Of a stretch of DNA of 64,000 bases, positions 17,859 through 54,453 are shown in pieces. Position 1 is the stretch's first letter. Each line of letters begins with the position of its first letter. The notes below the pieces were generated by a model that worked only from the letters and a program-made list of their open reading frames with translations, had not been told where the DNA came from and ran no database searches. The stretch lies in the NCBI GenBank assembly GCA_902781705.1, contig CACZKE010000004.1:1-64000 (forward strand), given 5' to 3'. The stretch is from an uncultured Bacteroidia bacterium. Lineage in GTDB: Bacteria > Bacteroidota > Bacteroidia > Bacteroidales > UBA932. The translations under genes were made by a program, and so were the position numbers.

Positions 17859-17908
17859 TTTTTATGGAGTCGGTAATTCGGAAAATGAGTTGTTTAGAGA
17901 GTGCGATA

Positions 17909-26725: not shown

Positions 26726-28009
26726 ATGTCAGCAGCAATTGAGTTCAACCACGTCGGTAAACAATATAGGTTAGGGCTTGTTTCCACTAGAACACTCTCA
26801 CATGATTTAAATCGTTGGTGGCAGACAGCAGTTTTGAAGAAAGAAGATCCTTACCTGAAGATCGGAGAGGTTAACGATCGGTCTTTGCTGGGATCAAGTG
26901 AATACGTTTGGGCTTTGAGGGATATCGATTTTAAGGTTGAACAAGGAGATGTTGTCGGCATCATCGGGAAAAACGGGGCAGGGAAGAGTACGCTCCTTAA
27001 GCTTTTGTCGAGAGTCACAGGGCCAACGGTGGGAACGATATGTGCCAAAGGAAGGATTGGATCTCTGCTTGAAGTGGGGACAGGTTTTCATCCTGAGATG
27101 ACAGGTCGGGAAAACATATTCATGAATGGCGCTATTATGGGAATGACGAAGCACGATGTGGCTAACAAGTTAGATGAAATCGTTGCTTTCTCCGGCTGTG
27201 AACGTTATATAGATACTCCGGTTAAGCGATACTCGTCAGGTATGACAGTTCGTCTTGGTTTCGCAGTTGCCGCTCATTTGGAACCGGAGATTCTGGTCGT
27301 TGACGAAGTCCTGGCCGTGGGTGATGCCGAGTTTCAGAAGAAAGCGATTGGCAAGATGCAGGATGTCAGCCGGGGAGAAGGCCGGACAGTGCTTTTCGTG
27401 AGCCATAACATGACGTCGATTAGAAGCCTGTGCAATACGGGAATCTTTCTCGAAAACGGAATGGTCCGTGAGCAGGGCGACATCAACACGATTGTTTCCC
27501 ATTATTTGGCTGGGGATAACGTTCTATTGAACCACAAGTCCTTTGATAAAGACAAGGAATTGACGGGGAACGGTTTTGAGATGATAGAGATGGGAATCCG
27601 CAAGCGGGGTGCATCATATGACGAGGTGATGTCAATGACGGATGAATTAGAACTTGTGATTCGTTATCGCTTGGATAATCCCATTGAGCAATTGCACCTT
27701 ACGTTGTATTTGAAAAATGAACAAGGGAATAGGGTTTTTTCCTTTAGTGGTGCTGGACGTTGCTATGATTATTATCATGATAAGGGTGAATATGTCCAGA
27801 CTTGCATAATACCGGCGAATTTTTTGAATTGGGGTAATTATGCGTTGGACATTTTTGTTGTGGAAAATAGGACACGTTCTTTCCTTCGTGCAATGGATGT
27901 TCTTACTTTTACATTAAGTAACAAGGCTTATGCGATTGGGTCGTACATGGGTAAAGAGCCAGGAGATATTACGCCCAAGTTTGCTTTCACCGAGGAGAAG
28001 ATAAGATAA
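26726..28009 (+). CDS. wzt: ABC transporter ATPase for polysaccharide export (Wzt-like, long form)
   Basis: A 427-residue ATPase. Residues 1-250 form the nucleotide-binding domain: Walker A GKNGAGKST (81-89), signature YSSGM (169-173), Walker B ILVVDEVLAVGD (189-200) and the switch His in FVSHNM. Residues about 265-427 form a beta-rich C-terminal domain of the Wzt type that in known systems recognises the modified end of the polymer before export. It pairs with the permease at 11616. The C-terminal domain is AT-richer than the ATPase domain, as expected where recognition has co-evolved with the glycan. Confidence 0.88.
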   Translation: MSAAIEFNHVGKQYRLGLVSTRTLSHDLNRWWQTAVLKKEDPYLKIGEVNDRSLLGSSEYVWALRDIDFKVEQGDVVGIIGKNGAGKSTLLKLLSRVTGPTVGTICAKGRIGSLLEVGTGFHPEMTGRENIFMNGAIMGMTKHDVANKLDEIVAFSGCERYIDTPVKRYSSGMTVRLGFAVAAHLEPEILVVDEVLAVGDAEFQKKAIGKMQDVSRGEGRTVLFVSHNMTSIRSLCNTGIFLENGMVREQGDINTIVSHYLAGDNVLLNHKSFDKDKELTGNGFEMIEMGIRKRGASYDEVMSMTDELELVIRYRLDNPIEQLHLTLYLKNEQGNRVFSFSGAGRCYDYYHDKGEYVQTCIIPANFLNWGNYALDIFVVENRTRSFLRAMDVLTFTLSNKAYAIGSYMGKEPGDITPKFAFTEEKIR

Positions 28010-28993: not shown

Positions 28994-29626
28994 ATGGGTG
29001 GATTATTAGATAGGATTATACGCGGACTCTATACAATTCCGTTTACGAAGAGTAAACTGACTGTGTTTAAACCGTGCATGTATTACATCCATCCTCATGC
29101 TCGTGTTTCAATAGGGAAATATTTCCATTTCAATCGATCTTGGGATAAAGACCGAATGGTATTGAACAAACAGGCCGGTTCGTTGTTTGTTGCGGAGAAT
29201 GCCTCCTTGGAGGTGGGTTCTTTTGATGCATATTCCGGCTGCCGGATCAATGTGAATTCAGGAGCCAAATTGACGCTGGGAAGCGGATATATGAACCATG
29301 ACAGTGTGATAGATTGTTTTGAATCCATCTCTGTCGGGGAGCATGTGGTTATTTCGGAGAGAGTGGTAATGAGGGATTCTGATAACCATGGGGTTTGTTC
29401 ATTGAAAGATAATTGCGAGATTACGGGGAAGCCGTCTTTTTCCGCCCCTATTGTTATTGAAGACCATGTTTGGGTTGGCATGAATGTGATTATTCTGAAA
29501 GGAGTGACAATCGGTGAGGGCTCGATTATCGCTGCCGGGAGTGTCGTTACTCGCGATGTCCCAGCCCATTGCCTGGCGGCGGGTGTTCCGGCTAAAGTAA
29601 TTAAAACCGAAGTAGCATGGTATTGA
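28994..29626 (+). CDS. Hexapeptide-repeat O-acetyltransferase
   Basis: A 210-residue left-handed beta-helix acyltransferase of the maltose/galactoside O-acetyltransferase type. It has VIEDHVWVGMNVIILKGVTI, then IGEGSIIAAGSVVTRDVPAH and the closing AAGVPAKVIK. The catalytic His is likely in SDNHGVC. Start 28994 (MGGLLDRII) follows the previous stop by two bases; the ORF's upstream ATG at 28901 lies within the preceding gene and is rejected. Its acceptor is probably a sugar of the repeat unit. Confidence 0.82.
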   Translation: MGGLLDRIIRGLYTIPFTKSKLTVFKPCMYYIHPHARVSIGKYFHFNRSWDKDRMVLNKQAGSLFVAENASLEVGSFDAYSGCRINVNSGAKLTLGSGYMNHDSVIDCFESISVGEHVVISERVVMRDSDNHGVCSLKDNCEITGKPSFSAPIVIEDHVWVGMNVIILKGVTIGEGSIIAAGSVVTRDVPAHCLAAGVPAKVIKTEVAWY

Positions 29627-31293
29627 AGAAACTTCTGAACCAGGCAATGAAGTATGGCGCTGTCGCGTGGATGGCTGTCATACTCGTATGGTATCTTATC
29701 TTGAGTACACTGCAGAATGGAATCTCCTGTGACGAAGGATACTATTTACTGGGTTATCTTCGTAATCAGAGTATTGAAGGGATTGGGACGGATTTCCATG
29801 CCATTGTACGTGCAATTTCCTACCCTTTCCCGGATGATAATATCATGGTGTTTCGTTATATCCGTGTGATATTGAATGTGATCGCCATCGTATTGTTTGC
29901 GGTTACATCTTATGAATGGCTTTCCAGAAAGAAGAACTTGTCGGTTTCACGATGGTCATTTTATCCAATGGTCATACTGGCAGGAGCCATGTCCTTTACC
30001 TTTGCCACGCCGACTGTTTCTTACGATAGTCTTGAACTGATTATCGCTCTTTCCGCAGCATCGTTCCTATTTGTTTTGTTCGCATCCGGGAAGAAGGCGG
30101 TAAAAAGTATCTGTGCTTTCGTCGTGGGATTTCTGTTATGGTTTGCTTGTACGAATTATCCACCCGCCGGTGTATGCATTGTAATCCTCTTCATGATTGC
30201 ATACTTTCTTGAAGTCGAGGATAAGGAGTGGATGCATTTTCTGGCTGCCATTCTCGGTGGATTGACGGCCATTGTCATCAGCCATCTCTTCATTCATGAC
30301 ATGAAGGTCTGGTTCTCCGAGATAAGCAAAGTGTTTGTCGCTACGATTACTCAAGAATCCATGTCCAATCACGATGCCGGAAGCCTTGTTTCAGTTATAC
30401 TGATAACTGTAGCCCAAGTATTTCTTGTGCTGGTCCCGGTCGTTGGGTTATTCACTTTGCTTTTTAAAAGAGTCCATGTGTCTGATACGATCCAATGGAT
30501 CGTTGTGTTGCTTGTTTGTGCTGTCCTGCTCGTTGTCAGAAAAGTCTATGAGCTTCGAGGTTTTTTGTACTTGATACCTGTAGCCATCGTTTTGGCAAAG
30601 GTCTTTGCTCAGTCCGGATTCAGCTTGAAGCAGTTTTTTCTTTCAAAGGAAACCTATCTTGTTTTGGTTTTGATCGCCATCCCGTTCGCCGGCGTTTTTG
30701 GCACGAACCAACCCATTCTGAATAAGGCTATCATTTTCGTTCCTTTCTGGCTGATGGCTTTTGTCTGTCTGTCTGCGTTGTTAAGTAGTGGGATGGATGA
30801 GCGGTTGAACTTGCTGTTTGTTGTACTGCTGATGGCTGGATACGTTTGGCTGGGTAATTTCCAACGTTATCATTATTACTATACTCCTCGTTCTGCAAAA
30901 TATGGAATTGTGGGCACATCCCGTCCTCAGAAAGTGCTCATCAGCCAGTATCAACAAGAGTATTATCGTGACTTGTTGGATACGTTGAAAGCGTCGGGCT
31001 GCAAACCTGGCGACAAGTACATGGCCTTTGGTGAAAATCAGATGGCTGTTTTTCTGGCTGGCGGCTTTATCGACGGCAGGCTTCCTTACCATTGGTGGCA
31101 ATACCGGGTTTTCGAAAAAGAAGCACCTCAGGCTTTCGTTTTTTTCAAGAACGAAGAGGATGGGGTGATCGGACATTTCCGGAATGCGGGATGGGGATTC
31201 CCTGAGGAGTACGGGAGGAAGGAGATGCGGCAGATGTCCCAGAATATGGGAGATGATCTTAGAACCGTGGTGTATGTCAAAAAGAATGATTAG
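29617..31293 (+). CDS. GT-C type membrane glycosyltransferase (family 39-like)
   Basis: A 558-residue membrane protein with about 11-12 hydrophobic segments. Its first periplasmic loop holds SCDEGYYLLGYL (near residues 36-47), the acidic motif of ArnT/PMT-like GT-C enzymes that use polyprenyl-phosphate sugars. A C-terminal soluble domain (about 450-558) follows. It is directly upstream of a GtrB/ArnC-like transferase that would make its polyprenyl-phosphate donor. It probably adds a side sugar to the glycan on the periplasmic side. The start overlaps the previous stop region. Confidence 0.72.
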   Translation: MVLKKLLNQAMKYGAVAWMAVILVWYLILSTLQNGISCDEGYYLLGYLRNQSIEGIGTDFHAIVRAISYPFPDDNIMVFRYIRVILNVIAIVLFAVTSYEWLSRKKNLSVSRWSFYPMVILAGAMSFTFATPTVSYDSLELIIALSAASFLFVLFASGKKAVKSICAFVVGFLLWFACTNYPPAGVCIVILFMIAYFLEVEDKEWMHFLAAILGGLTAIVISHLFIHDMKVWFSEISKVFVATITQESMSNHDAGSLVSVILITVAQVFLVLVPVVGLFTLLFKRVHVSDTIQWIVVLLVCAVLLVVRKVYELRGFLYLIPVAIVLAKVFAQSGFSLKQFFLSKETYLVLVLIAIPFAGVFGTNQPILNKAIIFVPFWLMAFVCLSALLSSGMDERLNLLFVVLLMAGYVWLGNFQRYHYYYTPRSAKYGIVGTSRPQKVLISQYQQEYYRDLLDTLKASGCKPGDKYMAFGENQMAVFLAGGFIDGRLPYHWWQYRVFEKEAPQAFVFFKNEEDGVIGHFRNAGWGFPEEYGRKEMRQMSQNMGDDLRTVVYVKKND

Positions 31294-31296
31294 TCT

Positions 31297-32229
31297 ATGC
31301 AAATCAATCCTCATATCTCGATAGTTTCTCCGGTTTATCATGGCGAGAAGATGGTCGCCGAGTTGGTTCGCCGGATTGTTGGGAGTGTTTGCCCCATCAC
31401 GGACAATTACGAAATCATTCTGGTGAATGATGCATCTCCGGACAATTCCTGGGCGGAGATCTTGAAGCAGTGCTCTGCCAATCCCAAGGTAAAAGGGATT
31501 GATCTCTCCAGAAACTTCGGTCAGCATTATGCCATTACTGCCGGATTGCATTATGCGACGGGGGAATGGGTGGTTGTAATGGATTGCGATTTGCAGGACC
31601 GCCCCGAAGAGATTCCGAATCTTTACAATAAGGCAGCCGAAGGGTTCGACATCGTTTACGCACGGCGTGTGGCTCGTAAAGATGGTTTCTTTAAAAGATT
31701 GTCTTCTACTTTGTTCCATTGGGTGTACAATTGGTTGAGTGGTCTGAATGCAGATAAAACCATCGCCAATTTTGGAATATACAAGCGATGTGTCATTGAG
31801 GAGTTCAATTCTATGCCTGAGCGTGCGCGCTCATTCCCTTCTTTGGTAAAGTATCTGGGGTTCCGGGATACGGCTATCGATGTCGAACATGCAGAACGTG
31901 CCGAAGGGAAGAGTTCATACAACTTATACAAATTGCTCAAACTCAGTTTTGACGTAATCGTGTCCAACAGCAATAAGCCTTTGCGAATGGCTGTCGGTAT
32001 CGGTTTCGGCATTTCCGCCGTCTCTTTTTTATTGGCGATTTACAATTTGATTGCGAAATGGGCCGGTATCATCAGGGTGCCGGGTTTTACGACGATGGTT
32101 TTCTCCATATGGTTTGTAGGAGGATTGCTGCTTTTCGTCATGGGTATCCAGGGGTTGTACATTGGAAAGATTTTCGACCAGGTGAAGGGACGGCAACTTT
32201 TTGTCGTCAGAGAAAAGATCAATCTATAG
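31297..32229 (+). CDS. Polyprenyl-phosphate glycosyltransferase (GtrB/ArnC-like)
   Basis: A 310-residue GT2 enzyme of the DPM1/GtrB class: ISIVSPVYHGEKM (7-19), ILVNDASPDNSW (41-52), NFGQHYAITAG (73-83), the metal motif DCDLQDRPE (96-104) and EGKSSYNLYKLLKLS before two C-terminal membrane helices (about 230-300). It loads a sugar onto undecaprenyl phosphate at the cytoplasmic face. Together with the GT-C gene upstream and the flippase-like pair at 34804-35474 it forms an Arn-like side-branch module. Confidence 0.88.
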   Translation: MQINPHISIVSPVYHGEKMVAELVRRIVGSVCPITDNYEIILVNDASPDNSWAEILKQCSANPKVKGIDLSRNFGQHYAITAGLHYATGEWVVVMDCDLQDRPEEIPNLYNKAAEGFDIVYARRVARKDGFFKRLSSTLFHWVYNWLSGLNADKTIANFGIYKRCVIEEFNSMPERARSFPSLVKYLGFRDTAIDVEHAERAEGKSSYNLYKLLKLSFDVIVSNSNKPLRMAVGIGFGISAVSFLLAIYNLIAKWAGIIRVPGFTTMVFSIWFVGGLLLFVMGIQGLYIGKIFDQVKGRQLFVVREKINL

Positions 32230-32266
32230 GAAACGGTTTTTCGATTTTAGTCAGTCGAGCGATAAA

Positions 32267-33544
32267 ATGAATAGTTTACAAGGGAAGAAACTGCTTGTAT
32301 TGGCAGGGAACAGTGTCCATGAAAAGATTGTCCGGGCTGCGAAGGATTTAGGTGTGTATACTATTGTAACCGACTATCTTCCAGTGGAACAATCCCCTGC
32401 GAAACTCATCGCGGATGAGTACTGGATGCTGAGTACGGGAGATATTGATGCCGTGGTTGAGAAGTGCCGGCAGGAGAAAGTCGATGGAGTCTTGACGTTC
32501 TGCATAGATACTGTGCAGTTCCATTATTTGGAAATATGCACAAAACTAGGCGTCCCTTGTTATGGAACTCGTCGGCAGTTTGAAATCATGACCAACAAGC
32601 GATTGTTTAAAGACTATTGCAAGGCGCATGGAGTAGGAACGATTCCTGAGTACACTTTGGATGATATAGACAATATTAGGGCGGATTTCCCTGTCTTGGT
32701 CAAACCTTCCGATAGCAGAGGATCCAGAGGACAAACTGTTTGCCATGACAAGGATGAAGTACCTGCAGCCATCGCATTCGCGAAGAGTGAATCGAAAGAC
32801 GGAGGGTATTTGATTGAGCGTTATATGCAAGGTGCTCAGGATATGTCATTTGCGTACATCGTAATAGGAGGGGTACCTTATTTGATCAAAATCGGAGACA
32901 GATATCTTGGGAAACAGGATGACAATCTGGACAAACAGCAAATGGCGACTCTATTGCCTTCCCGTTTTGCTGAAGACTACCGGAAACAAGCCGAGAAGAA
33001 GGTCATTGAAATGATCAGGTCTTTAGGGATGTCTTTCGGCCCTGTTTTTATGCAGGGGTTTTATGACAACGGGGAGGTCTATATGTATGATCCCGGATTA
33101 CGCTTCCCTGGAAGTGACTTCGATATCGTTTTGAAAGCGGCAACGGGTTTTGACAGTATGAAATCCTTCGTGAAATTTGCCTTGACCGGCGCGTCTGACA
33201 GTCGCGAGGGGAATCCATCCGGAGTGTATGATTATGGTGGAAAGTATTGTCTGCTCTTGTCTGTCTCTGCCAGACCGGGGAAAATTGGAAAGTTAGAAGG
33301 AATGGAAAAGATTAAATCTCTACCGAGTGTTTTTTCCGCCTTTTATTACCATCATGTGGGTGATGTGATTCCGGCTTCGGGAGATATAAGGCAGCGGGTG
33401 GCTGAGTTCTGTTGTTTGCTTCCGGACATAGATTCGGTTTCCCACTTTGTTTCGTTGGTGTATGAGACGCTCAGTATCGAGGATGAGCAAGGAAATGACA
33501 TGATCGTATCCAAGGTCGAAACACTTTGTCAACCAATAAAATAA
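32267..33544 (+). CDS. ATP-grasp ligase 3
   Basis: A 425-residue ATP-grasp enzyme starting MNSLQGKKLLVLAG; the upstream ATG at 32201 lies inside the previous gene. The ATP core has FPVLVKPSDSRGSRGQTVC and GGYLIERYMQGAQD, followed by an unusual metal-site segment VYMYDPGLRFPGSDFD. It is related in layout to ligase 2 at 17909. Its stop overlaps the start of an opine-type dehydrogenase (TAATG), and an amino-sugar transaminase follows 2 kb later. This suggests that it attaches an amino acid or opine to an amino sugar. Confidence 0.77.
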   Translation: MNSLQGKKLLVLAGNSVHEKIVRAAKDLGVYTIVTDYLPVEQSPAKLIADEYWMLSTGDIDAVVEKCRQEKVDGVLTFCIDTVQFHYLEICTKLGVPCYGTRRQFEIMTNKRLFKDYCKAHGVGTIPEYTLDDIDNIRADFPVLVKPSDSRGSRGQTVCHDKDEVPAAIAFAKSESKDGGYLIERYMQGAQDMSFAYIVIGGVPYLIKIGDRYLGKQDDNLDKQQMATLLPSRFAEDYRKQAEKKVIEMIRSLGMSFGPVFMQGFYDNGEVYMYDPGLRFPGSDFDIVLKAATGFDSMKSFVKFALTGASDSREGNPSGVYDYGGKYCLLLSVSARPGKIGKLEGMEKIKSLPSVFSAFYYHHVGDVIPASGDIRQRVAEFCCLLPDIDSVSHFVSLVYETLSIEDEQGNDMIVSKVETLCQPIK

Positions 33545-34779
33545 TGGATGGTATGAGAGATCTGGGCTATTTGAAGGATTGCCCCATCGCTGTCCTCGGA
33601 GGCGGGGCTGTAGGAAAAACGGTGGCTGCGGATTGTAAGTTGGCCGGTCGTGAGGTCAGGCTTTATTCCCGAAGCGAGAAATCGCTTTCCCATTTGGAAA
33701 AGACAGGAATTCTGTTGGATGGGATTCAGCGGAACCTGTACGGATTCGAACGTTCCGGCAGGGCTTTTCTTGACGTGGTCAGCACGGATATGGCAAAAGT
33801 TGTCAAGGATGCCAAACTGATTGTTCTGGCAGTCCCGGCATTGTCACACGAATACTACCTCCGTTCTTTAGTCCCACTGTTGGAAGATGGGATGGTCGTT
33901 CATACTTTTACTGACAATTACGCCAGTCTTTTACTGCGCAGGTTCATGCGAGAGGCGGATTGTCGGAAGGATGTGATAGTCGGGGGATGGAGTTCGGCTC
34001 CATATGGTACGAGGGTCGAAAAAGTGTCCGGCTTCTGGACCAACCATGTCGGTGTGAAATATAGGGCGATTTCATTGAGGGGCGCTTGCCTGCCCATGAC
34101 AGATATGGACGATTTCATGGAATCTGTGAAGTATCTGCCCTGTATGGATTCGGTCACGCAGGGAGACGGTCCTGTGAAAGGGGATACAATGCTTGACATC
34201 GGTTTCTCCAATGTCAATCCTGTCATTCATGTTCCGGCATCCCTGCTGGGGGTGTCCAGCATGGAGAACTGGTCTTTGGTTTACGGTAATGAACCGGATT
34301 CTTATTCAATGTACTCCCATGGATTGTGTCCGTCCATCTGCAAAATTCAATACCTGTTCTATCAGGAAGAATGCAATTTGGCGAAGGCGATCGGAATCGA
34401 TTATCCCAAATATGCGTACGAGATGTTTTTCTCCCGCAGGAGCATTTTGACTCAGGAATATATGGGATTGGATGCTGATGGAAAGGATAATGTCGTATTT
34501 CCGCTTGACAAGCCCTGCAATGAGGGGAATGTCGGTCCGAACTCGATCGATCATCGCTATTTTACGGAAGATATTCCCGTCGGATGCAAATTGTATCATG
34601 ACTTTGGACTGAAATTTGGCGTCGACACACCTGTTATAGATTCCATGATTGTCCTTGGAGGAGGAATGCACGGAAAGAACTACTATGAGGAATCACATTA
34701 CAGTCTCGACTATCTTGGAATAGGGCATATGACCAGGGAAGAACTGCTCGATTATATGTATAACGGTAATTATGTTTAA
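33544..34779 (+). CDS. NAD(P)-dependent opine-type dehydrogenase
   Basis: A 411-residue protein of the octopine/nopaline dehydrogenase family. The N-terminal Rossmann motif is IAVLGGGAVGKTVAADC (15-31). It is followed by a VVSTDMAKVVKDAKLIVLAVPA segment (78-99 overall). The all-helical C-terminal domain begins with SNVNPVIHVPASLLG (222-236), where H229 is the conserved family histidine. Known members reductively couple an amino acid amino group with a 2-keto acid, or carry out the reverse. The ATG at 33544 overlaps the preceding stop; a TTG at 33526 is less likely. Beside an ATP-grasp ligase and a transaminase, it may make an N-(1-carboxyalkyl) amino acid for attachment to the glycan. Confidence 0.78.
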   Translation: MDGMRDLGYLKDCPIAVLGGGAVGKTVAADCKLAGREVRLYSRSEKSLSHLEKTGILLDGIQRNLYGFERSGRAFLDVVSTDMAKVVKDAKLIVLAVPALSHEYYLRSLVPLLEDGMVVHTFTDNYASLLLRRFMREADCRKDVIVGGWSSAPYGTRVEKVSGFWTNHVGVKYRAISLRGACLPMTDMDDFMESVKYLPCMDSVTQGDGPVKGDTMLDIGFSNVNPVIHVPASLLGVSSMENWSLVYGNEPDSYSMYSHGLCPSICKIQYLFYQEECNLAKAIGIDYPKYAYEMFFSRRSILTQEYMGLDADGKDNVVFPLDKPCNEGNVGPNSIDHRYFTEDIPVGCKLYHDFGLKFGVDTPVIDSMIVLGGGMHGKNYYEESHYSLDYLGIGHMTREELLDYMYNGNYV

Positions 34780-34803
34780 TTGTCACTGTCGATCGGTCAA
34801 TCG

Positions 34804-35142
34804 ATGACGAAGATCCCTTTTACATATCTTTCTCTTGTAGGAATCAATTTCATTTACGCCTGCACATCCATTTGTACCAAAATGGCGTCTAAACAGGCGG
34901 CAATGTCATGGCCCTATGTCCTTTGGGTCATAGGTGCCATCGCTGTATTGGGTGTTTATGCATTGCTTTGGCAGCAGGTGATAAAAAGGATGCCGATATC
35001 TTCTGCATATATGTTCAAGGGAACGAGTCTCGTTTTCATCCTATTAATCTCTGCTCTTTTGTTCGGTGAATCGATTACCTGGGCGAATGTCATCGGCTCG
35101 TTCATTATCATTTCGGGAATTGTCTTGTTTGCTAAAGCATGA
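34804..35142 (+). CDS. Small multidrug-resistance-like membrane protein A (ArnE/F type)
   Basis: A 112-residue protein with four membrane helices (start 34804, MTKIPFTYL; a TTG at 34780 is disfavoured). It shows FIYACTSICTKMAS early and ISSAYMFKGTSLVFILLISALLFGE in the third and fourth helices (fragments of about residues 67-91), the EamA/SMR pattern with a Glu after the third helix. It overlaps the next gene by four bases (ATGA). Such pairs (ArnE/ArnF) are proposed to flip undecaprenyl-phosphate sugars. Here it would serve the GtrB/GT-C module 2.5 kb upstream. Confidence 0.72.
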   Translation: MTKIPFTYLSLVGINFIYACTSICTKMASKQAAMSWPYVLWVIGAIAVLGVYALLWQQVIKRMPISSAYMFKGTSLVFILLISALLFGESITWANVIGSFIIISGIVLFAKA

Positions 35143-35474
35143 TTTATTATTTGCTGGTTGTCTTTTCTGTCTTTTGTGCCGCAGGAGCGCAGATGCTGCT
35201 CAAGCAAGGTGCGAAGAAAGAGTATCCCTCTTTTTGGCGGCAGTATCTCAATCCGTGGGTGGTTGGTGGCTATGGCATCATGGGGGCGTCTCTATTGCTT
35301 AATATCTTTTGTTTGAGCAGAGGTGTGCAGGTCAAGGAAGTGAGCATTATCGAGTCCTTGAGTTATTTGTTTGTCCCCTCCTTGGCCTGGTTTTTTTTCA
35401 AAGAAAGGATTTCCTGGAAAAAGGCAGGTGCCATCGTTGTAATCATGATAGGCGTTGTTGTGTTTTTTATTTGA
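35139..35474 (+). CDS. Small multidrug-resistance-like membrane protein B (ArnE/F type)
   Basis: A 111-residue, four-helix protein: LLVVFSVFCAAGAQMLLKQGAK at the N-terminus (5-26), a LSRGVQVKEVSIIESLSYLF segment and WFFFKERISWKKAGAIVVIMIG at the end. It resembles the second subunit of ArnE/ArnF pairs. The helix-one Gln/Lys pattern (AQMLLKQG) is typical of EamA/SMR half-proteins. Co-translation with the preceding gene suggests a heterodimeric flippase for a polyprenyl-phosphate sugar. Confidence 0.74.
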   Translation: MIYYLLVVFSVFCAAGAQMLLKQGAKKEYPSFWRQYLNPWVVGGYGIMGASLLLNIFCLSRGVQVKEVSIIESLSYLFVPSLAWFFFKERISWKKAGAIVVIMIGVVVFFI

Positions 35475-35487
35475 GAATCATTTAGTT

Positions 35488-36600
35488 ATGCGTATCCCTT
35501 TCAATAAACCGCATCTTACCGGCAAGGAATCCCACTATATGTATCAGGCCGTATATGACGGAAAACTGAGCGGCAATGGCGAGTTTACCAAGCGCTGCCA
35601 GCGGTTCTTCGAAGAAAAGTACGGCTTCAAGAAGTGTCTGCTGACGACAAGTTGTACTGATGCACTTGAGATGGCCGCCATCTTGTGCGATATTCAACCG
35701 GGAGACGAGGTCATCGTGCCCAGTTATACTTTCGTCTCCTCCGCACTGGCGTTTGTCCGCCAGGGAGCGAAGATCGTCTTTGCCGATAGCATGGAATGCA
35801 ATCCGAATATCGATGCAGAGAAGATCGAAGATTTGATAACACCTCGGACAAAGGTGATCGTTCCTGTCCATTATGCCGGCGTGGCATGTGATATGGACCG
35901 CATCATGGAGATTGCGGAAAGACATAATCTCCTTGTCGTTGAGGATGCTGCACAAGCGATCGACTCCTATTATAAGGGAAGACCTTTGGGGACAATCGGT
36001 CATCTCTCCGCTTTCTCGTTCCACGAAACGAAGAATATCATCTCGGGCGAAGGCGGCATGCTGGGTATCAACGACGCCCGTTTCATCCGCCGTGCCGAAA
36101 TCATCTGGGAGAAAGGTACCAACCGGGCCGAATTCTTCCGTGGCGAAGTGAACAAGTATGGCTGGTGCGACATTGGTTCGTCGTTCCTGCCGAGTGAGGT
36201 GATCGCCGCTTTTCTTTGGGCGCAACTGGAGTCTTTGGACGAGATCCAGGCAAAACGCAAGCAGTTGTGGAATAAGTACTATGAACTGTTGAAACCATTG
36301 GCAGAGCAAGGGAGATTCCGTCTGCCCGATATCCCGGATTATGCGACCAATAACGCCCATATGTTCTATCTGGTCTGCAATAGCCTGGAGGAGCGTACGG
36401 CTTTGATCAAGAAATTGAAAGAGAACGATATCCTTGCCGTATTCCATTATCTGAGTTTACATAGTAGCGATTATTACAAGGACAAGCACGATGGTCGCCA
36501 GTTACCCGAATGCGACCGTTATGCGGATTGTCTGGTGAGACTGCCGATGTACTATGATTTGTCGGAGAGTGACGTGGAGAGGATTTGTGGGATTATTTGA
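35488..36600 (+). CDS. wecE: dTDP-4-amino-4,6-dideoxygalactose transaminase
   Basis: A 370-residue PLP enzyme very similar throughout to E. coli WecE: MRIPFNKPHLTG at the start, LTTSCTDALEMAA (52-64), PSYTFVSSALAF (78-89), VVEDAAQAIDSYYKG (150-164), the PLP lysine K182 in FHETKN, GTNRAEFFRG and FHYLSLHSS. WecE makes dTDP-4-amino-4,6-dideoxygalactose (Fuc4N) from the 4-keto intermediate and glutamate. The first residues (start at 35488) fit the family; the longer ORF from 35455 overlaps the previous gene. RmlA/RmlB, which make the keto sugar, are not in the window. Neither is the usual N-acetyltransferase WecD, so the amine could be acylated by another enzyme here. Confidence 0.9.
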   Translation: MRIPFNKPHLTGKESHYMYQAVYDGKLSGNGEFTKRCQRFFEEKYGFKKCLLTTSCTDALEMAAILCDIQPGDEVIVPSYTFVSSALAFVRQGAKIVFADSMECNPNIDAEKIEDLITPRTKVIVPVHYAGVACDMDRIMEIAERHNLLVVEDAAQAIDSYYKGRPLGTIGHLSAFSFHETKNIISGEGGMLGINDARFIRRAEIIWEKGTNRAEFFRGEVNKYGWCDIGSSFLPSEVIAAFLWAQLESLDEIQAKRKQLWNKYYELLKPLAEQGRFRLPDIPDYATNNAHMFYLVCNSLEERTALIKKLKENDILAVFHYLSLHSSDYYKDKHDGRQLPECDRYADCLVRLPMYYDLSESDVERICGII

Positions 36601-37403
36601 TGGAACTGAGTAAATCCGATACGACAGGAGTCAAGGGAATAGCCATCCTATTCATGCTTTGGCATCATTTATTCCTGCACTCAACGGAGTATGGGAGCCT
36701 TACGCAGTCATTGGCCATTGTTTTCAAGGTGTGCGTGGCGTTGTTCCTTTTTGTCAGTGGCTATGGCTTGACAAAGCAGTATGGAAGTTTGGTGAATCGA
36801 AACATACAGACTACGATCCGTTTTTTCCCCATCCTGTATATGATTCTGAGCAACAGATTTACCGCTATTGCTGGCTTAATTGCGATTGTCCTTGTCCAAT
36901 TATATGCCAAAAGCATTCCGGGGAACGTGTTCTTTATCGTGGAAGGAAGATTGCCGGCTTTTTATGTGGGGATGTTGGCTTCTAGGTTGCGAGTCGGTCA
37001 GGAGCCGGAAGTACGGTCGCAAAAGACGGTTTTAGGTGTCGTTGCAGTCCTGGTGGGAATGTGTTTGTCCCTATTGCTGCTCAAAGTAGTTAGGGATCCC
37101 TATGTGGCCGTTTTGATCCGAGCCTTTTTAGCATTGAGCATTGTTGTCGTTTATAAGTCTTTTTCGAGAGACGACATGCGCATCCTGAACTTCGTCGGGA
37201 AGTATTCTGCCTTCATGTATCTGACCCATGTGCTGCTTATTGTCCTGTTGCCCAAGGTCGTTTATTTCTCTCACGTCTCCGTGCTTGTCTTTGTCTTCTT
37301 CTCCCTTTCCAGCCTGCTTGTTGCCATGGTAATTGATTGGTTGCAGAAGATTTCACGTTATGACAAATTACGTATGGCATTGTTATCTATCGTAAATCAA
37401 TGA
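36600..37403 (+). CDS. Acyltransferase 3-like protein, internally shortened
   Basis: A 267-residue membrane protein. The N-terminal signature TTGVKGIAILFMLWHHLF (8-25) has the conserved His, and LFLFVSGYGLTKQYG follows. It is then only about 50 residues to the late VEGRLPAFYVGML segment, where full-length relatives in this window have well over 100. The central membrane helices appear to be missing in frame. It may be a remnant or a diverged enzyme, and activity is doubtful. The ATG overlaps the wecE stop (TGATG). Confidence 0.6.
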   Translation: MELSKSDTTGVKGIAILFMLWHHLFLHSTEYGSLTQSLAIVFKVCVALFLFVSGYGLTKQYGSLVNRNIQTTIRFFPILYMILSNRFTAIAGLIAIVLVQLYAKSIPGNVFFIVEGRLPAFYVGMLASRLRVGQEPEVRSQKTVLGVVAVLVGMCLSLLLLKVVRDPYVAVLIRAFLALSIVVVYKSFSRDDMRILNFVGKYSAFMYLTHVLLIVLLPKVVYFSHVSVLVFVFFSLSSLLVAMVIDWLQKISRYDKLRMALLSIVNQ

Positions 37404-43235: not shown

Positions 43236-45098
43236 ATGATTAGTATCAATACCATCAAACTGATTGTCTGGGACCTGGATGAAACGTTCTGGTCCGGTAC
43301 CTTGTCGGAAGGCGGAGCCTTGATTCCTGAGGAGCATATCCGCTTGATCAAAGACCTGACCGATTGTGGTATCATCAACTCCATCTGCTCGAAAAACGAG
43401 TTCGACCCAACGAAGACGGCCCTTCAGGATGCGGGAGTCTGGGACTTGTTTGTCTTCCCGTCCATCAACTGGGATAGCAAAGGTCCTCAGCTCAAAGACA
43501 AGTTGGACAAGATGGCCTTACGTCCCGTGAATGTTCTCTTCCTGGATGACAACCTCTCAAATCTGGGTGAAGCAAAGCATTATCTGCCGGAGATCCAAAC
43601 GGGAGGACCGGAACTGATTCCGGAGCTGATCAGGCAGGTAGGAGCGCTGGAGAAAAAGGACCTTAAACACAAGCGTCTGGCACAGTATAAGATTCTGGAA
43701 ACCAAGGATCAGGTTTCGAAATCTTTTTCCAGCAGCGATGATTTCCTCTACGACAGCCATATCCAGGTCAAGGTCCATACGGATTGCACGAATCAAATCG
43801 GGCGGATCCATGAGTTGCTGCTCAGAAGCAACCAGTTGAATTATACGAAGAAAAGGACCAGCATCGAAGAACTGGAGGCCATTCTTGCGGATCCGACATA
43901 CAATTGCGGCTATGTAACGGTCAAAGACCGGTATGGTGATTATGGCATTGTCGGTTTTTACGCGGTAAAGGATAACCGTTTGGAGCACTTCCTGTTCTCT
44001 TGCCGGACGATGGGCCAGAAGATTGAGCAATGGGTCTATGCCCAGTTGGGCTTTCCGGAACTGAAGGTCGTCGGTGATGTCAGGACCCTGCTGAACCGGA
44101 CGGAGTGTCCGGGCTGGTTCAATCAGCCGGAGCCGTCGGTTACGGACAGCGCCCAAACGGACGGAAAGGCGCTTTCTTGCCGTATCCTGATGAAGGGTCC
44201 ATGCGACCTGTCCCATTCCTTGGTCTATATCAAAGGTTCCGATCAGATTGACACCGAGTTTACCTATGTCAGTAATGCCGAAGGGCAGATTATCGATGCC
44301 CACAACCACTCTGTCCACATAGAAGGCCTTCATACATACACCGAACAGGACAAAGAAGAAATTGTCCGTGATTGTATGTTTGTCGATCCTAATATGCTGT
44401 CCGGTTCTTTCTTTACGAAGAAGTATGACCTGATCGTCCTCAGTACCCTGATTGAATCGACTTATCAGATATATCGGAAAAAAGGGACTGACTTGCGAGT
44501 GGTCTTCGGTGGCCTTGATTTGACGGACCCCGAACAGTGGGATGCGTATCTCGAAGGCCGGACCTATACTGGCGGGAACAGGTTCACGAAAGAGTTTCTC
44601 CGTTCATTTTCAGAGAAATACGAATGTCTGGGCCTTACGACTCCCGAGATGTACGTATCTTTCCTTCAAAAGTGCTTGGACTGGCTTCCGGAGGAGACGT
44701 CCCTTTGCTTGATTCTCGGTGCGACCAGACTGTTCGACGGGCAGGAGGACGTCAAGGAAAGACATCGTCTTCTCAATACGGCTGTCAAGGCATTTGCGCA
44801 GGATCATCCGCGGATCAAGTTTGTCGAGATCGATGACTGCATAAGCGACCCTTCCGATTTCGCTGGGGAAATCAATCATTATTCCTCCAAGGTCTATTTC
44901 GAGATAGCCCAAAGAATCATCGGGGTAATCCAGTCCGTTACCGGAACGAAACTGGAATCTTATTCCTCGAAGATGGTGGTGGTGGACAACTTGACATTGA
45001 AGATCCGGAAGATGCTGAAGAAAATGGTATCCCAAGATTCCGTCATCTATCGGAAACTCAAGGACGTGTATAACAGGATTTACAAGAACCGCGGTTGA
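43236..45098 (+). CDS. FkbH-like HAD protein with C-terminal SGNH-like domain
   Basis: A 620-residue, two-part enzyme. Residues 1 to about 290 are FkbH-like: the HAD motif VWDLDETFWSGTL (D13, D15), NVLFLDDNLSN near 104 and a GNAT-like part with KDRYGDYGIVGFYAV. Characterised FkbH proteins take 1,3-bisphosphoglycerate and load a glyceryl group onto an acyl carrier protein. Residues about 310-600 resemble SGNH-type hydrolase domains, with a closing NHYSSKVYFEIAQRI segment. A carrier protein and a ketosynthase III are encoded 2.5 kb downstream, supporting a joint role in making an acyl group for the glycan. Confidence 0.78.
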   Translation: MISINTIKLIVWDLDETFWSGTLSEGGALIPEEHIRLIKDLTDCGIINSICSKNEFDPTKTALQDAGVWDLFVFPSINWDSKGPQLKDKLDKMALRPVNVLFLDDNLSNLGEAKHYLPEIQTGGPELIPELIRQVGALEKKDLKHKRLAQYKILETKDQVSKSFSSSDDFLYDSHIQVKVHTDCTNQIGRIHELLLRSNQLNYTKKRTSIEELEAILADPTYNCGYVTVKDRYGDYGIVGFYAVKDNRLEHFLFSCRTMGQKIEQWVYAQLGFPELKVVGDVRTLLNRTECPGWFNQPEPSVTDSAQTDGKALSCRILMKGPCDLSHSLVYIKGSDQIDTEFTYVSNAEGQIIDAHNHSVHIEGLHTYTEQDKEEIVRDCMFVDPNMLSGSFFTKKYDLIVLSTLIESTYQIYRKKGTDLRVVFGGLDLTDPEQWDAYLEGRTYTGGNRFTKEFLRSFSEKYECLGLTTPEMYVSFLQKCLDWLPEETSLCLILGATRLFDGQEDVKERHRLLNTAVKAFAQDHPRIKFVEIDDCISDPSDFAGEINHYSSKVYFEIAQRIIGVIQSVTGTKLESYSSKMVVVDNLTLKIRKMLKKMVSQDSVIYRKLKDVYNRIYKNRG

Positions 45099-47925: not shown

Positions 47926-48930
47926 ATGGGTGCTTTTCTGAAAGCCATATCCTATTATCTTCCCGAGGATACGCTGACCAACGAAATGCTGGCTGTCGAA
48001 TTCCCCGAGTGGGATGTGGATAAAGTGTATAATAAGGTCGGTGTCCGGAAACGGCATTTGGCTCGTCCTTCCGTGACTGCTGGTGATTTGGCAGAGAAGG
48101 CCGCCAGGAAACTCTTCGATGAGAAAGGTGTAGGTCCTAGCGACATTGACTTTATCATTCTTTGCACACAAAGCCCGGACTTTTTTCTCCCTTCTACGGC
48201 CTGTGTCCTGCAGGACCGCCTGGGCATTCCCACTTCGGCCGGAGCTTTCGATTACAATCTGGGTTGTTCGGGCTGTATTTATGGAATGGCAATGGCCAAA
48301 GGGCTCATTGCTGCGGGTTTGGCTTCCAATGTCCTTTTGCTTACGGCAGAGACTTACACGAAGTACTTGCATCCTTTGGACAAGAGTAACCGTACTATCT
48401 TCGGTGATGCTGCCGCTGCTTGCTTGATTTCCGGGGTCGAAGGCTTTGCCGAGATTGGTGATTTTGTCTTGGGGACGGACGGCTCCGGTGCCTCCAACCT
48501 GATGGTCCGAAGCGGAGCTGCACGGCAGCCGGAAAAGACTGCCCGGGAGTCTGTGGACGATGACGGCCATGTGAACCGGGAGGATTACCTGTATATGAAC
48601 GGGAGTGCCATCTTCAACTTTACGCTGGAAACGGTTCCCCCCTTGATGAAATCGCTTCTCGATAAAAGCGGAATTGAGAAGGCTGATGTGGACTATTATG
48701 TGTTCCATCAGGCCAATAAGTATATGTTGAACACGATTCGGAAAGTTTGCGGAATCCCTGCCGACCGGTTCTATATGGACCTGGAAGATACCGGGAATAC
48801 GGTTTCTTCTACCATCCTGATCGGTTTGAAAGAATGTTTAAGGGCCGGAAAGATTCTTCCTGGGATGGAGGTGATGGCCTGTGGTTTCGGTGTCGGACTT
48901 TCCTATGGAGCTTGCATGTTGCATTTTTGA
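47926..48930 (+). CDS. Ketosynthase III (FabH-like)
   Basis: A 334-residue thiolase-fold enzyme. The catalytic triad is readable: C114 in LGCSGCIYGM, H261 in VFHQANKYM and N291 in EDTGNTVSS. It starts the base after the ACP stop. KASIII enzymes extend an acyl-CoA with malonyl-ACP or transfer acyl groups. With the FkbH-like protein and the dedicated ACP it probably makes a short, unusual acyl chain for an acyltransferase. The substrate is unknown. Confidence 0.83.
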   Translation: MGAFLKAISYYLPEDTLTNEMLAVEFPEWDVDKVYNKVGVRKRHLARPSVTAGDLAEKAARKLFDEKGVGPSDIDFIILCTQSPDFFLPSTACVLQDRLGIPTSAGAFDYNLGCSGCIYGMAMAKGLIAAGLASNVLLLTAETYTKYLHPLDKSNRTIFGDAAAACLISGVEGFAEIGDFVLGTDGSGASNLMVRSGAARQPEKTARESVDDDGHVNREDYLYMNGSAIFNFTLETVPPLMKSLLDKSGIEKADVDYYVFHQANKYMLNTIRKVCGIPADRFYMDLEDTGNTVSSTILIGLKECLRAGKILPGMEVMACGFGVGLSYGACMLHF

Positions 48931-49664
48931 TGATGGACTTTACGCTGGAAAAATACGCCGATCTTCTGGATGCCCTGAAAGCCTACGATTTCGATTCGTT
49001 AGTTCTGCGACATGACGTGGACCTTTTGCCCGGGAACTCCCTCCGGACAGCCCGCATGGAGGCAGAGAAGGGGATGTACGGCATCTTTTTTTTCCGGGCA
49101 GTCCCGGAAAGTTGGGACGAGGGGATCATCTGCGAAATCGCTTCCTTGGGCCACGAAGTCGGGTATCACTATGAATCCCTGACAACCTGCGACGGTGATA
49201 TCGACAAGGCCTATGCGGACTTCTGCAAGAACCTGGAGGCTCTTCGCCAGTTGGTCCCGGTCCGGAGTATCTGCATGCACGGAAGCCCCCGGTCTCCTTA
49301 TGACAGCAAGGATATCTGGAAGAAGTACGATTACAAGGCTCTCGGAATTGATAATGAGCCGTATCTGGACACGGATTTCTCGAAGGTCTTTTACTTAACC
49401 GACACCGGTCGCCGTTGGGATGGTTACAAGGTTAGCGTGCGTGACAAGATCCCTCAGTATCAGGATGAATGGACGGCCAAGGGGTTGACTTTTCATTCGA
49501 CAGACGATGTCATAGACGGACTCCGGCGTGGTGTAATCCCCAAAAGCCTGATGGTAACGGTCCATCCTCAGCGCTGGAACCCTTTCGGGCTTGTGTGGTG
49601 CAAGGAGATGCTGCTGCAAAATGCAAAGAATATAGTTAAAAGAGTAATTGTCAAGAATAAATGA
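48930..49664 (+). CDS. Polysaccharide deacetylase-like protein (NodB-type fold)
   Basis: A 244-residue protein (start 48930 overlapping the previous stop, TGATG; the ORF's upstream ATG at 48747 lies in the ketosynthase gene). It shows VLRHDVDLLPGN (25-36) and GHEVGYHYES (74-83), which correspond to the first metal motif and the His-rich motif of NodB-type deacetylases. A late VTVHPQRWN segment is seen. The usual TFDDG is RHDVD here. It may deacetylate an N-acetyl sugar or be a structural relative with another role. It precedes wecC by a small gap. Confidence 0.68.
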   Translation: MMDFTLEKYADLLDALKAYDFDSLVLRHDVDLLPGNSLRTARMEAEKGMYGIFFFRAVPESWDEGIICEIASLGHEVGYHYESLTTCDGDIDKAYADFCKNLEALRQLVPVRSICMHGSPRSPYDSKDIWKKYDYKALGIDNEPYLDTDFSKVFYLTDTGRRWDGYKVSVRDKIPQYQDEWTAKGLTFHSTDDVIDGLRRGVIPKSLMVTVHPQRWNPFGLVWCKEMLLQNAKNIVKRVIVKNK

Positions 49665-50869
49665 TCAACGTTATCGGCCTCGGCTATATCGGCCTTCCTA
49701 CGGCCCTCATGCTGGCTTCCCATGGGGTGGAAGTCATTGGGACGGATTATAATAAAGAACTTGTCGCCACGCTGAATGCGGGGAAGACGACCTTCAAGGA
49801 AGATGGTCTGGACGAACTGTTTGCCGCTGCTGTCAAGGGCGGGATCAAGTTCACGACCGAGTACCAGAAGACGGATATGTACATCGTTTCCGTCCCCACA
49901 CCGTATGACAAGTTCTCCAAGAAGGTGGATCCTTGCTATGTGGTCGCCGCGGTGACGCAGGTGCTGGCGGCCTGCCCGGACGGGGCTACGGTAGTGATCG
50001 AGAGTACCATCTCTCCGGGGACTATTGATAAGTCCGTCCGTCCGGTGATCGCCGAGAGCGGCAAGCAAGTGAATCTGGTCCACGCTCCCGAGCGCATCAT
50101 CCCGGGCAACATGGTCTATGAGCTTCTGCACAACAACCGCACGATCGGTGCCGATGACAAGGCGGTGGGGGAGAAGGTAAAGGCATGCTATGCCAGCTTC
50201 TGCCAGGGTGAAATCGTGGTCACTGATATACGGACGGCCGAAATGACCAAGGTCGTGGAGAACACGTTCCGGGCCGTGAACATCGCCTTTGCCAATGAAC
50301 TCGCCCGCATCTGCCGGCACGACAATATGGACGTGTACGAGATCATCCGCATCTGTAACATGCACCCGCGGGTGAACATCCTGCAGCCTGGTCCCGGCGT
50401 GGGTGGCCACTGCATCAGCGTGGACCCGTGGTTCCTGGTGGGCGACTATCCCAGCCTTGCCAAGGTTATCGACGAGTCCATGAAGACCAACGACGGCCAG
50501 CCCGCCTTCGTCCTGAACCGCATCTACGAGATTATGAAGGAGAACGGTATCACGGACACCCGCCGCGTCGGTCTCTATGGCCTGACGTATAAGGAGAATG
50601 TAGATGACGTTCGCGAAAGCCCGACCCTGCAGCTGCTTGAGTGCCAGGAAAAGCATCTGGCTGAGCCGTTGAAAGTGTACGATCCTTTGATTGAAAAGGA
50701 CATCGTAAAGAACCAGTATCACGACCTCGATGTATTCCTTGCCGATCTGGACATGGTCGTTGTGATGGTGAAGCACGACCAGATCAAGGGCTGCTGGGAC
50801 AAGTTGAAAGACAAAGTTATTCTGGATTGCCATAACATCTGCCCACTGGAAGGTGTGTATCATATTTAG
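49661..50869 (+). CDS. wecC: UDP-N-acetyl-D-mannosamine dehydrogenase (WecC-like)
   Basis: A 402-residue nucleotide-sugar 6-dehydrogenase. It has VIGLGYIGLPTALMLA (4-19) for NAD, a VVIESTISPGT segment, and TAEMTKVVENTFRAVNIAFANEL with PRVNILQPGPGVGGHCISVDP (fragments spanning about residues 188-260), where the Cys is catalytic. These features match WecC, which makes UDP-ManNAcA, and distinguish it from UDP-glucose dehydrogenases. A WbpA-like role (oxidising UDP-GlcNAc) is possible, since WbpA is otherwise missing for the WbpB/E/D route. The codons are GC-rich. Confidence 0.85.
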   Translation: MINVIGLGYIGLPTALMLASHGVEVIGTDYNKELVATLNAGKTTFKEDGLDELFAAAVKGGIKFTTEYQKTDMYIVSVPTPYDKFSKKVDPCYVVAAVTQVLAACPDGATVVIESTISPGTIDKSVRPVIAESGKQVNLVHAPERIIPGNMVYELLHNNRTIGADDKAVGEKVKACYASFCQGEIVVTDIRTAEMTKVVENTFRAVNIAFANELARICRHDNMDVYEIIRICNMHPRVNILQPGPGVGGHCISVDPWFLVGDYPSLAKVIDESMKTNDGQPAFVLNRIYEIMKENGITDTRRVGLYGLTYKENVDDVRESPTLQLLECQEKHLAEPLKVYDPLIEKDIVKNQYHDLDVFLADLDMVVVMVKHDQIKGCWDKLKDKVILDCHNICPLEGVYHI

Positions 50870-53271: not shown

Positions 53272-54453
53272 ATGAAAAGAGTATTGTTGGTTTTCGGAAC
53301 CCGGCCAGAGGCCATCAAGATGTGCCCGCTTGTCAAGGAGTTCCAGAAATATCCGCAGGATTTTGAAACGGTTGTGTGTGTGACGGGGCAGCATCGGGAG
53401 ATGCTGGACCAGGTGCTGGACATCTTTGGCGTGAAGCCGGATTACGACCTGAATATCATGAAGCAGGGGCAGGACCTGTATGACGTCACGGCACGGGTGC
53501 TGACCGGGATGCGGGATGTCCTGGACGCCGTGAAACCGGATGTGGTGCTGGTCCATGGGGACACGACTACTTCGATGGCAGCAGCGATTGCGGCATTCTA
53601 TCGGCAGATTCCGGTGGGGCATGTCGAAGCAGGTCTTCGGACGCATAACCTGTACAGTCCCTGGCCGGAGGAGATGAATCGGCAGGTGACGGGACGGATT
53701 GCAGAGTATGACTTCGCGCCGACTCCGCTCAGCCGGCAGAATCTATTGGATGAGGGCGTTCCTGAGGAAAGGATAACGGTGACAGGGAATACGGTGATCG
53801 ATGCGCTGCATTGGGTGGTGGAGAATGTGCTTGCCATGGGTTATGTTCCGAAAGATCCTTCAGTCGCCGCGCTCCTTCAGGATGACAGACGCAAGGTTCT
53901 CATTACCGGTCACCGGCGCGAGAATTTCGGCGAAGGGTTCATCAGCATGTGTACGGCAATCCGGGACCTGGCCTGGAAATATCCCGAGGTGGATTTCGTG
54001 TATCCGATGCATTTGAATCCGAATGTGCGGAAAGCGGTCAAGGAGGTTTTCGGAGAGATGGCCGATCAGGTCGGCCATGACGGAGATGGGAGCAGCCATG
54101 ACAGGAACGTCATTCCCGGATCGACCGGGAATCTGCATTTCATCGAGCCATTGGATTATTTGGATTTCGTGTATCTGATGTCGCGAAGTTATATTGTTTT
54201 GACTGATTCTGGCGGTATCCAGGAGGAGGCGCCGGGACTGGGAAAGCCGGTGCTGGTGATGCGGGATACGACGGAGCGTCCGGAGGCATTGGAGGCCGGA
54301 ACGGTGAAACTGGTAGGAACGGATTATGGCCGGATTTTCATGGAGGTGTCCCGGCTTTTGGATGATTCGGACGCTTATGATGCCATGAGTCACGCGGTAA
54401 ATCCTTATGGGGATGGAAAGGCGTGCCCCAGAATAGTAGAAAAGTTGAAATAA
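53272..54453 (+). CDS. wecB: UDP-N-acetylglucosamine 2-epimerase (WecB-like)
   Basis: A 393-residue GT-B-fold epimerase. It has [15 protein letters not shown] (6-20), [54 protein letters not shown] and [10 protein letters not shown], all family signatures. It interconverts UDP-GlcNAc and UDP-ManNAc and feeds WecC for ManNAcA. A WbpI-like role on diacetamido-uronate is an alternative. It is strongly GC-rich. A -7 promoter-like site directly follows its stop. Confidence 0.9.

Follow-up and report, generated by a model that had tools for sequence, protein, structure and literature searches.

Many glycans with amino acids in amide linkage to amino sugars are recorded in the accessible part of PMC10609480, which gives D-aspartyl on Fuc4N in Treponema medium, N-epsilon-(1-carboxyethyl)lysine in Providencia rustigianii O14 and N-(1-carboxyethyl)alanyl (alanopine), an opine group, amide-linked to Qui4N in the O-antigen of P. 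alcalifaciens O35. On the enzyme side, ATP-grasp aminoacyl ligases around CA_C2195 have been predicted in operons for modified surface carbohydrates, with no dehydrogenase mentioned in the accessible main text (PMC4000134), and the accessible part of PMC5322557 has an opine dehydrogenase only within a siderophore cluster. Here we describe the first 64,000 nucleotides (the window) of contig CACZKE010000004.1 from an uncultured Bacteroidales bacterium (assembly GCA_902781705.1), in which the gene for an ATP-grasp carboxylate-amine ligase is directly followed by one for an opine-dehydrogenase-family enzyme (ODH). An earlier note on this sequence had proposed that the two, together with a flippase-like pair and a WecE transaminase, make an opine-like compound that is then amide-bonded to a 4-amino sugar; its premise that some O-antigens carry amide-linked N-(1-carboxyethyl) amino acids is borne out by the alanopine of O35. 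We find that the pairing of ODH and ATP-grasp ligase recurs in related glycan loci, often with a sugar transaminase.

The predicted product would share with P. alcalifaciens O35 an opine amide on a 4-amino-4,6-dideoxy sugar (PMC10609480, same part), and would differ from it in having Fuc4N where O35 has Qui4N and in belonging to another phylum. From 29617 to 36600 the genes encode, in order, a polytopic protein, an ArnC/PgfS-like family 2 glycosyltransferase (GT2), the ATP-grasp ligase, the ODH, two EamA/ArnE-F-like proteins and WecE; the set thus extends beyond the stretch first singled out (32267-36600), with the GT2 and the polytopic protein directly upstream. A C4 transaminase, a polyprenyl-phosphate GT2 and a two-piece small flippase are clustered likewise in the Arn pathway (ArnB, ArnC, ArnE/F, ArnT), from which the window differs in that its ArnC, ArnE and ArnF matches fall below cut-offs, the ligase and ODH are added and no ArnT is recognisable. 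As in the wecB/wecC/wecE cluster of enterobacterial common antigen, the window has WecE, an Epimerase_2 protein and a UDP-sugar dehydrogenase; unlike that cluster, it has ABC-2 exporter genes, the added ATP-grasp and ODH genes, and no WecD that we could find. CA_C2195-type operons share the predicted ATP-grasp ligase of a surface carbohydrate.

The flippase-like pair and WecE that the earlier note saw after the ODH are indeed there. Both small proteins match EamA, and WecE passes both curated cut-offs (NF008687, 575.5 bits against 375; TIGR02379, 527.4 against 434.85), while the WecD reported missing beside it has no TIGR02382 match anywhere in the window's genome. The ArnE model scores 35.2 bits for the first EamA protein and 20 for the second (cut-off 92), the ArnF model 19.8 for the second (cut-off 99), and the GT2 lies below the NCBIfam cut-offs of both PgfS (196.6 bits against 500) and ArnC (188.5 against 529). 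These proteins would act like ArnC, ArnE and ArnF, and we do not assign them to those families.

The dehydrogenase and the ligase

The ODH matches Octopine_DH at 3.8e-29 (102.1 bits against a cut-off of 30). Its Rossmann GxGxxG motif reads GGGAVG, with G19, G21 and G24 conserved in at least 90% of 34 aligned rows, and H229 and D343, invariant in the same rows, align with H202 and D297 of 1bg6, the N-(1-D-carboxyethyl)-L-norvaline dehydrogenase of Arthrobacter; the latter two residues we take to be its catalytic His-Asp pair. 1bg6 was matched by phmmer at 5.1e-15 and by the 34-row profile at 2e-29, and shares domain order, fold and the His-Asp pair with the ODH, the two differing in sequence (22% identity by Foldseek), in the NADP(H)-type site of the window enzyme and in its lack of Trp at the aligned position. 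With a structure model of the ODH (predicted local distance difference test, pLDDT, 83), Foldseek placed 1bg6 first (E 2.4e-22), followed by octopine and pseudopaline dehydrogenases (ranks 2-7), one PanE-type reductase (rank 8), staphylopine and pseudopaline dehydrogenases (ranks 9-11) and, from rank 12 onward, D-mandelate dehydrogenase and ketopantoate reductases. By sequence and by fold, the nearest solved relatives are opine dehydrogenases, the clustering on which the earlier note had made its proposal depend. Domain, fold and His-Asp pair place the ODH in the opine-dehydrogenase family, and condensation is its predicted activity. At position 124 the ODH has Asp; the corresponding residue of 1bg6, A111, is counted among the specificity positions in the accessible part of PMC10787698. 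As the alignment is gapped there, no substrate was guessed from it.

The TAATG overlap described between the two frames is present in the letters, but the ODH gene may begin later: M4 of the window ODH aligns near the first residue of most of its close relatives, and its start may accordingly be the ATG at 33553, leaving 8 bases between the genes.

The window ligase matches CPSase_L_D2 with 28.7 bits (cut-off 19.8), as do, at E up to 0.01, all 14 ATP-grasp proteins scanned, namely the 12 adjoining ODHs of the window's clade (below) and two others of the window; the L-amino-acid-ligase C-terminal domain LAL_C2 was matched in six of the 14. Its structure model (pLDDT 91.2) retrieved 4dim first and the L-amino acid ligase 3vot second. 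The fold is common to the L-amino acid ligases BL00235, RizA and BacD, from which the window ligase differs in metal-site residues and in its predicted acceptor, an amino sugar.

Recurrence of the pair in related loci

Relatives of the ODH were taken from genome contigs (the best 80 of 98), and a set of 83 was formed by counting L061 (the same locus as L054) once and adding the window, L053, L054 and L136; one species is represented twice, by L053 and L134. The loci mostly lie on binned metagenome contigs and carry the organism names of their bins, and between 2 bases and 10 kb of flank were available around the ODHs. Trees were built by a quick method, with SH-like approximate likelihood ratio (SH-aLRT) support only, and the custom profiles for ATP-grasp, DegT, MmgE and other families could miss distant members.

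The window ODH falls within a clade of 20 (SH-aLRT 100). A same-strand ATP-grasp gene lies within 100 bases of 12 of these 20 ODHs (window, L054, L057, L058, L059, L060, L062, L063, L064, L065, L068 and L072) and of none outside the clade. In 11 of these loci the ligase gene comes first; in L065 the ODH gene precedes it. When gene order was permuted in 19 clade loci, leaving out L136 and treating related loci as independent, 2.8 adjacencies were expected against the 12 seen, and none of 20,000 permutations reached 12. The 63 ODHs outside the clade have no same-strand ATP-grasp gene within 10 kb of available flank, and four of them (L093, L097, L114, L135) have one on the opposite strand 3-9 kb away. 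A same-strand DegT transaminase accompanies nine of the 12 pairs (window, L054, L057, L059, L062, L063, L065, L068, L072), and the DegT profile matched within 9 kb of only one of the 63 outside ODHs (L097, 26 bits). This recurring adjacency supports the view of ODH, ATP-grasp ligase and sugar transaminase as a functional unit, which answers the neighbourhood survey that the earlier note had called for. The ligases of the pairs differ, those of L054, L058, L062 and L064 being 13-16% identical to that of the window.

WecE-, DesI-, ArnB- and LegC-type transaminases are C4 enzymes. Among the eight transaminases scanned (that of L059 fell outside the scan), the WecE model was above cut-off in the window and L072; the best NCBIfam models for others, all below cut-off, were DesI-like (L057, L068), ArnB-like (L063) and LegC-like (L065), and L054 and L062 gave weak, mixed matches with none above cut-off. 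The closest counterpart of the window is L072, a Bacteroidales bin from horse faeces, where GT2, two EamA proteins (the second below the Pfam cut-off), ATP-grasp, ODH and WecE are followed by a 659-aa polytopic protein. It has the window's ODH, ligase, WecE, flippase pair and ArnC-like GT2 in a different order; no clustering was seen between its polytopic protein and that of the window, and the correspondence therefore covers the other genes only. In L060 the order GT2, ATP-grasp, ODH runs up to the contig end, and the ODH is 92% identical to that of the window over 358 columns. Relatives of the window GT2 stand upstream of the pair in both L060 and L072.

Among the remaining clade members, L071 and L073 have a same-strand ATP-grasp gene 1.4-4.4 kb upstream of the ODH with an MmgE/PrpD-like gene between, and L056, whose contig ends 2.3 kb upstream of the ODH, has MmgE/PrpD. 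L136 is a phage-like contig with an Amidoligase_2 protein about 2 kb upstream of the ODH and one weak ATP-grasp profile match (20.2 bits) 384 bases upstream.

The clade is also set apart by its cofactor site. In Rossmann folds a site of the LYSR type favours NADP(H), one of the Asp/Glu type NAD(H). All 20 clade ODHs have LYSR at the end of the second strand (LYSR---S in the alignment), and all 62 other readable ODHs, nearly all about three residues longer there, have Asp or Glu; L131 is too short to be read there, leaving 82 readable. The residues thus point to an NADP(H)-type site in the window clade and an NAD(H)-type site in its readable relatives. The 20 against 62 are not 82 independent observations, because the tree shows a single switch. 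Racemase-like, MetQ-like, MttB-like, TRAP-like and MmgE/PrpD genes stand beside the NAD(H)-type ODHs (MetQ, MttB and TRAP assigned by eye; the racemase of L053, at 30.2 bits, just below the cut-off of 31), which apparently places these ODHs in catabolic settings. The MmgE/PrpD family includes iminodisuccinate epimerase, and given this membership such neighbours would fit iminodiacid substrates. The change at the cofactor site, together with the catabolic-looking neighbours of the NAD(H)-type ODHs, suggests that a catabolic enzyme became biosynthetic once, in the clade that moved into glycan loci. In L081-L135, from Enterococcus, Streptococcus, Lachnospiraceae and sulfate reducers, many NAD(H)-type ODHs lie beside racemase-like plus amino-acid-type ABC or MttB-like genes, a probable opine-catabolic operon.

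The pairing is also found outside this set. A second ODH lineage of other Bacteroidales, separate from the window clade in a tree of 38, has the ODH next after an ATP-grasp gene in six glycan loci (L151-L156), five of which have a DegT-profile match in the same stretch, with a partial match in L153; two of its eight rows are without the pairing, L153b, with a sulfotransferase-like gene upstream, and L012, which ends at a contig end. Two members tested match 1bg6 at 1.3e-74 and 2.5e-73. A third lineage shows the pairing in one locus, L158, and it was not found in the short stretch available for its sister L016. Within the window's family, six of 139 genomes gave a strong ODH-profile match (1e-50 or better) and three more one at 1e-21 to 1e-24; ATP-grasp is directly upstream of the ODH in five of the six, and in the sixth (G838, L157) the surroundings are phage-like and an amidoligase-like gene (by eye) adjoins the ODH.

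Two further observations concern the neighbours of ODHs. Directly after the second-lineage ODH lies a conserved protein of about 620 aa, whose DxHxxG sequence is reminiscent of B12-binding domains (by eye) and of which two full-length copies scanned had no Pfam match. Phage-like regions pair an ODH-family gene with DUF488-like and amidoligase-like genes in L136, L157 (7525-8655) and L015, the assignments in L157 and L015 being made by eye; here again an opine-type enzyme accompanies an amide ligase.

Matches to the window ODH itself are sparse: six of 149 genomes of the family (best other 78% identity), 16 of 393 of the order (all others 21-31%) and nine of 395 in a draw from the phylum, the window's own genome being included each time and one genome of the order draw also in the last. 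Viral contigs gave nothing in a single-protein search and one contig in an alignment-based search.

The proposed pathway and its alternatives

The explanation we favour, and consider reasonably probable, is that an opine is made and then amide-coupled to dTDP-Fuc4N for a surface glycan. It gains plausibility from the recurring linkage, from the independent ODH lineages drawn into the same pairing and from the existence of a product of this type. The opine-dehydrogenase family traits of the ODH, the NADP(H)-type site of all clade ODHs, the C4-type transaminases near the pair, the more distant same-strand ligase genes of L071 and L073, the shared gene set of L072, D-aspartyl on Fuc4N in T. medium and, in the window's genome, RmlB without a WecD match also speak for it. 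From these genes we infer the reactions, their substrates and order, and the acceptor. The ODH would reductively condense an amino acid with a 2-keto acid, probably using NADPH, to a free opine; the ATP-grasp enzyme would convert a carboxylate of the opine to an acyl phosphate and couple it to the 4-amino group of WecE-made dTDP-Fuc4N, in place of N-acetylation by WecD. The ArnC-like GT2, the ArnE/F-like pair and perhaps the polytopic protein would then load the sugar onto undecaprenyl phosphate and flip it, and the same Arn-like arm would move the opine-sugar to the surface glycan as an acidic side group. As for the original proposal, its enzyme family, linkage and precedent stand, while opine formation, substrates, step order and the Fuc4N amide continue as predictions.

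Several observations weigh against this explanation. The ODH model is weak around the active site (221-228, 320-332, 339-341). Opine dehydrogenases are said to have a conserved active-site Trp (PMC10787698, accessible part), and the ODH has none opposite the residue of 1bg6 that is a candidate for it, in a gapped stretch of the alignment. The metal-site residues of the window ligase, Q263/D275/G277 (by eye), are unusual: Q/D/G recurs in L060, L072, L057, L059 and L068 and Q/D/A is found in L063, these six being the most similar ligases, and the window ATP-grasp protein at 15706 has E/E/T. D/E/N (by eye) is found in the ligases of L054, L062 and L064. No ligase was found in the available flanks of four clade loci (L066, L067, L069 and L070, from Blautia, twice Eisenbergiella, and Fusicatenibacter), and, with 62 of the 82 readable ODHs being of the NAD(H) type, the family looks catabolic for the most part. 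Regarding sugar supply, RmlB is above cut-off in the window's genome with RmlC- and RmlD-like frames adjoining (by eye), and PF00483 matches four other nucleotidyltransferases; no RmlA is above cut-off in this assembly, stated to be 98.97% complete.

The order of the two steps could also be reversed: the ATP-grasp enzyme would begin by aminoacylating the nucleotide-bound 4-amino sugar, and reductive alkylation of the free alpha-amine with a 2-keto acid, by the ODH, would follow. Known amino acid amides on amino sugars, D-aspartyl-Fuc4N included (PMC10609480, accessible part), fit this order, as do the two window ATP-grasp genes without an adjoining ODH and the downstream position of the ODH in nearly all adjacent loci. 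We nevertheless think it unlikely, given that opine dehydrogenases have been assayed with free amino acids (PMC10787698, accessible part) and that relatives of the window ODH adjoin transporter- and racemase-like genes.

It is improbable that the ODH joins the sugar 4-amino group itself to a 2-keto acid and that the ATP-grasp enzyme amidates the carboxylate of the resulting N-(1-carboxyalkyl)amino sugar. This would account for transaminase, ODH and ligase equally, but no such sugar was met in the accessible part of PMC10609480, and the scarcity of DegT genes near ODHs outside the clade shows that the family occurs away from transaminases.

We hold it quite improbable that the ODH is no opine dehydrogenase but a reductase of 2-keto acids (PanE/D-mandelate dehydrogenase type) that feeds the ligase a hydroxy acid. 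Its C-terminal Octopine_DH domain and its His-Asp pair speak against this, and 1bg6 stands ten orders of magnitude in E ahead of the first PanE-type entry; the fold is nonetheless common to PanE-type entries, which opine dehydrogenases other than 1bg6 lead or trail by little, and no Trp stands at the aligned position. That the pair makes a soluble opine-like metabolite, a metallophore or signal, and lies in a glycan locus by chance is very improbable, for all the staphylopine and pseudopaline dehydrogenases among the fold matches, since the pair is met repeatedly with sugar transaminases and glycan genes across loci and ODH lineages; no search aimed at metallophore genes was made.

More tentatively than the opine amide in the window, we propose that bacteria have widely, and more than once, assembled the means to decorate surface glycans by ligating opines to 4-amino sugars. 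This joint reading, which we regard as possible rather than likely, would have at least three ODH lineages and several very different ATP-grasp ligases recruited beside sugar transaminases in Bacteroidota and also, going by bin names, in Spirochaetota and Bacillota, a change in the window clade from an NAD(H) enzyme of catabolism to an NADP(H) enzyme of biosynthesis, and an Arn-like arm delivering the opine-sugar in the window and L072.

The product type is already known from the Providencia O-antigen, and the gene module has no description among the open-licence literature matches listed. Within these, no treatment of opine dehydrogenase with ATP-grasp in polysaccharide loci was found: PMC9491580 does not mention O35, PMC7824862 has 'amidoligase' in one place and opine and DUF488 nowhere, and PMC7438024 mentions neither ATP-grasp nor polysaccharide. 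The statement that no such pathway is described in Bacteroidales is so far uncontradicted there, which is weak evidence of absence given that only open-licence literature among the matches listed was covered. If true, sugar C4 transaminase, ATP-grasp ligase and opine dehydrogenase would form a gene signature for an acidic amide decoration recorded for very few O-antigens, and would predict it in rumen and gut commensals, where opine groups would alter surface charge and could matter for recognition by phages, antibodies and peptides. Because two carriers, Xylanibacter ruminicola Ga6B6 (L059, with its ODH at 9995-11233) and Parabacteroides sp. ZJ-118, bear isolate names rather than those of bins, the prediction is directly testable.

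Layout of the window and minor features

The whole window resembles one large surface-polysaccharide locus with many glycosyltransferase-like genes, most of them assigned by eye. The polytopic protein upstream of the GT2 had no Pfam match up to E 1; its position and topology tentatively suggest a GT-C-like transferase that draws on a lipid-linked sugar. An ArnT identity was considered for it and could not be shown.

Table 1. Positions of the genes and regions discussed, in the window and in related loci.
Feature	Coordinates	Strand	Sequence	Remarks
ABC-2 exporter	11616-12509		window	
ABC-2 exporter ATPase	26726-28009		window	
Polytopic membrane protein, 558 aa	29617-31293	+	window	12 hydrophobic segments (simple hydropathy scan)
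GT2, ArnC/PgfS-like polyprenyl-phosphate sugar transferase	31297-32229	+	window	2 C-terminal hydrophobic segments
ATP-grasp carboxylate-amine ligase, L-amino-acid-ligase-like, 425 aa	32267-33544	+	window	CPSase_L_D2
ODH, 411 aa	33544-34779	+	window	Octopine_DH PF02317; start possibly 33553
Small EamA-type protein, ArnE-like flippase subunit	34804-35142	+	window	EamA 34 bits (cut-off 28.2)
Small EamA-type protein, partner of the preceding, ArnF-like	35139-35474	+	window	EamA 35 bits
WecE, C4 transaminase predicted to give dTDP-Fuc4N	35488-36600	+	window	NF008687, TIGR02379
Acyltransferase-3 family membrane protein	36600-37403	+	window	PF01757 61.3 bits
UDP-sugar dehydrogenase	49661-50869		window	
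Epimerase_2 protein	53272-54453		window	
Protein of about 620 aa	7627-9489		L151	
Protein of about 620 aa	3692-5551		L152	
Protein of about 620 aa	9725-11584		L154	
Protein of about 620 aa	4410-6272		L155	
Protein of about 620 aa	6777-8627		L156	
Phage-like region	9998-11221, 5985-8039		L136	Amidoligase_2, phage DAM-like, GNAT-like, DUF488

A second set in the window, 14603-19159, has no ODH and consists of a DesI-like transaminase (14603-15706), an ATP-grasp protein (15706-16911), an unassigned protein (16911-17858) and a further ATP-grasp protein (17906-19159), which suggests a second amino-acylated sugar; in L057 and L059 a set placed like this one does contain an ODH. The glycan locus also encodes an FkbH-like protein (43236-45098; 132.8 bits, cut-off 146.65) and a ketoacyl-ACP-synthase-III-like protein (47926-48930).

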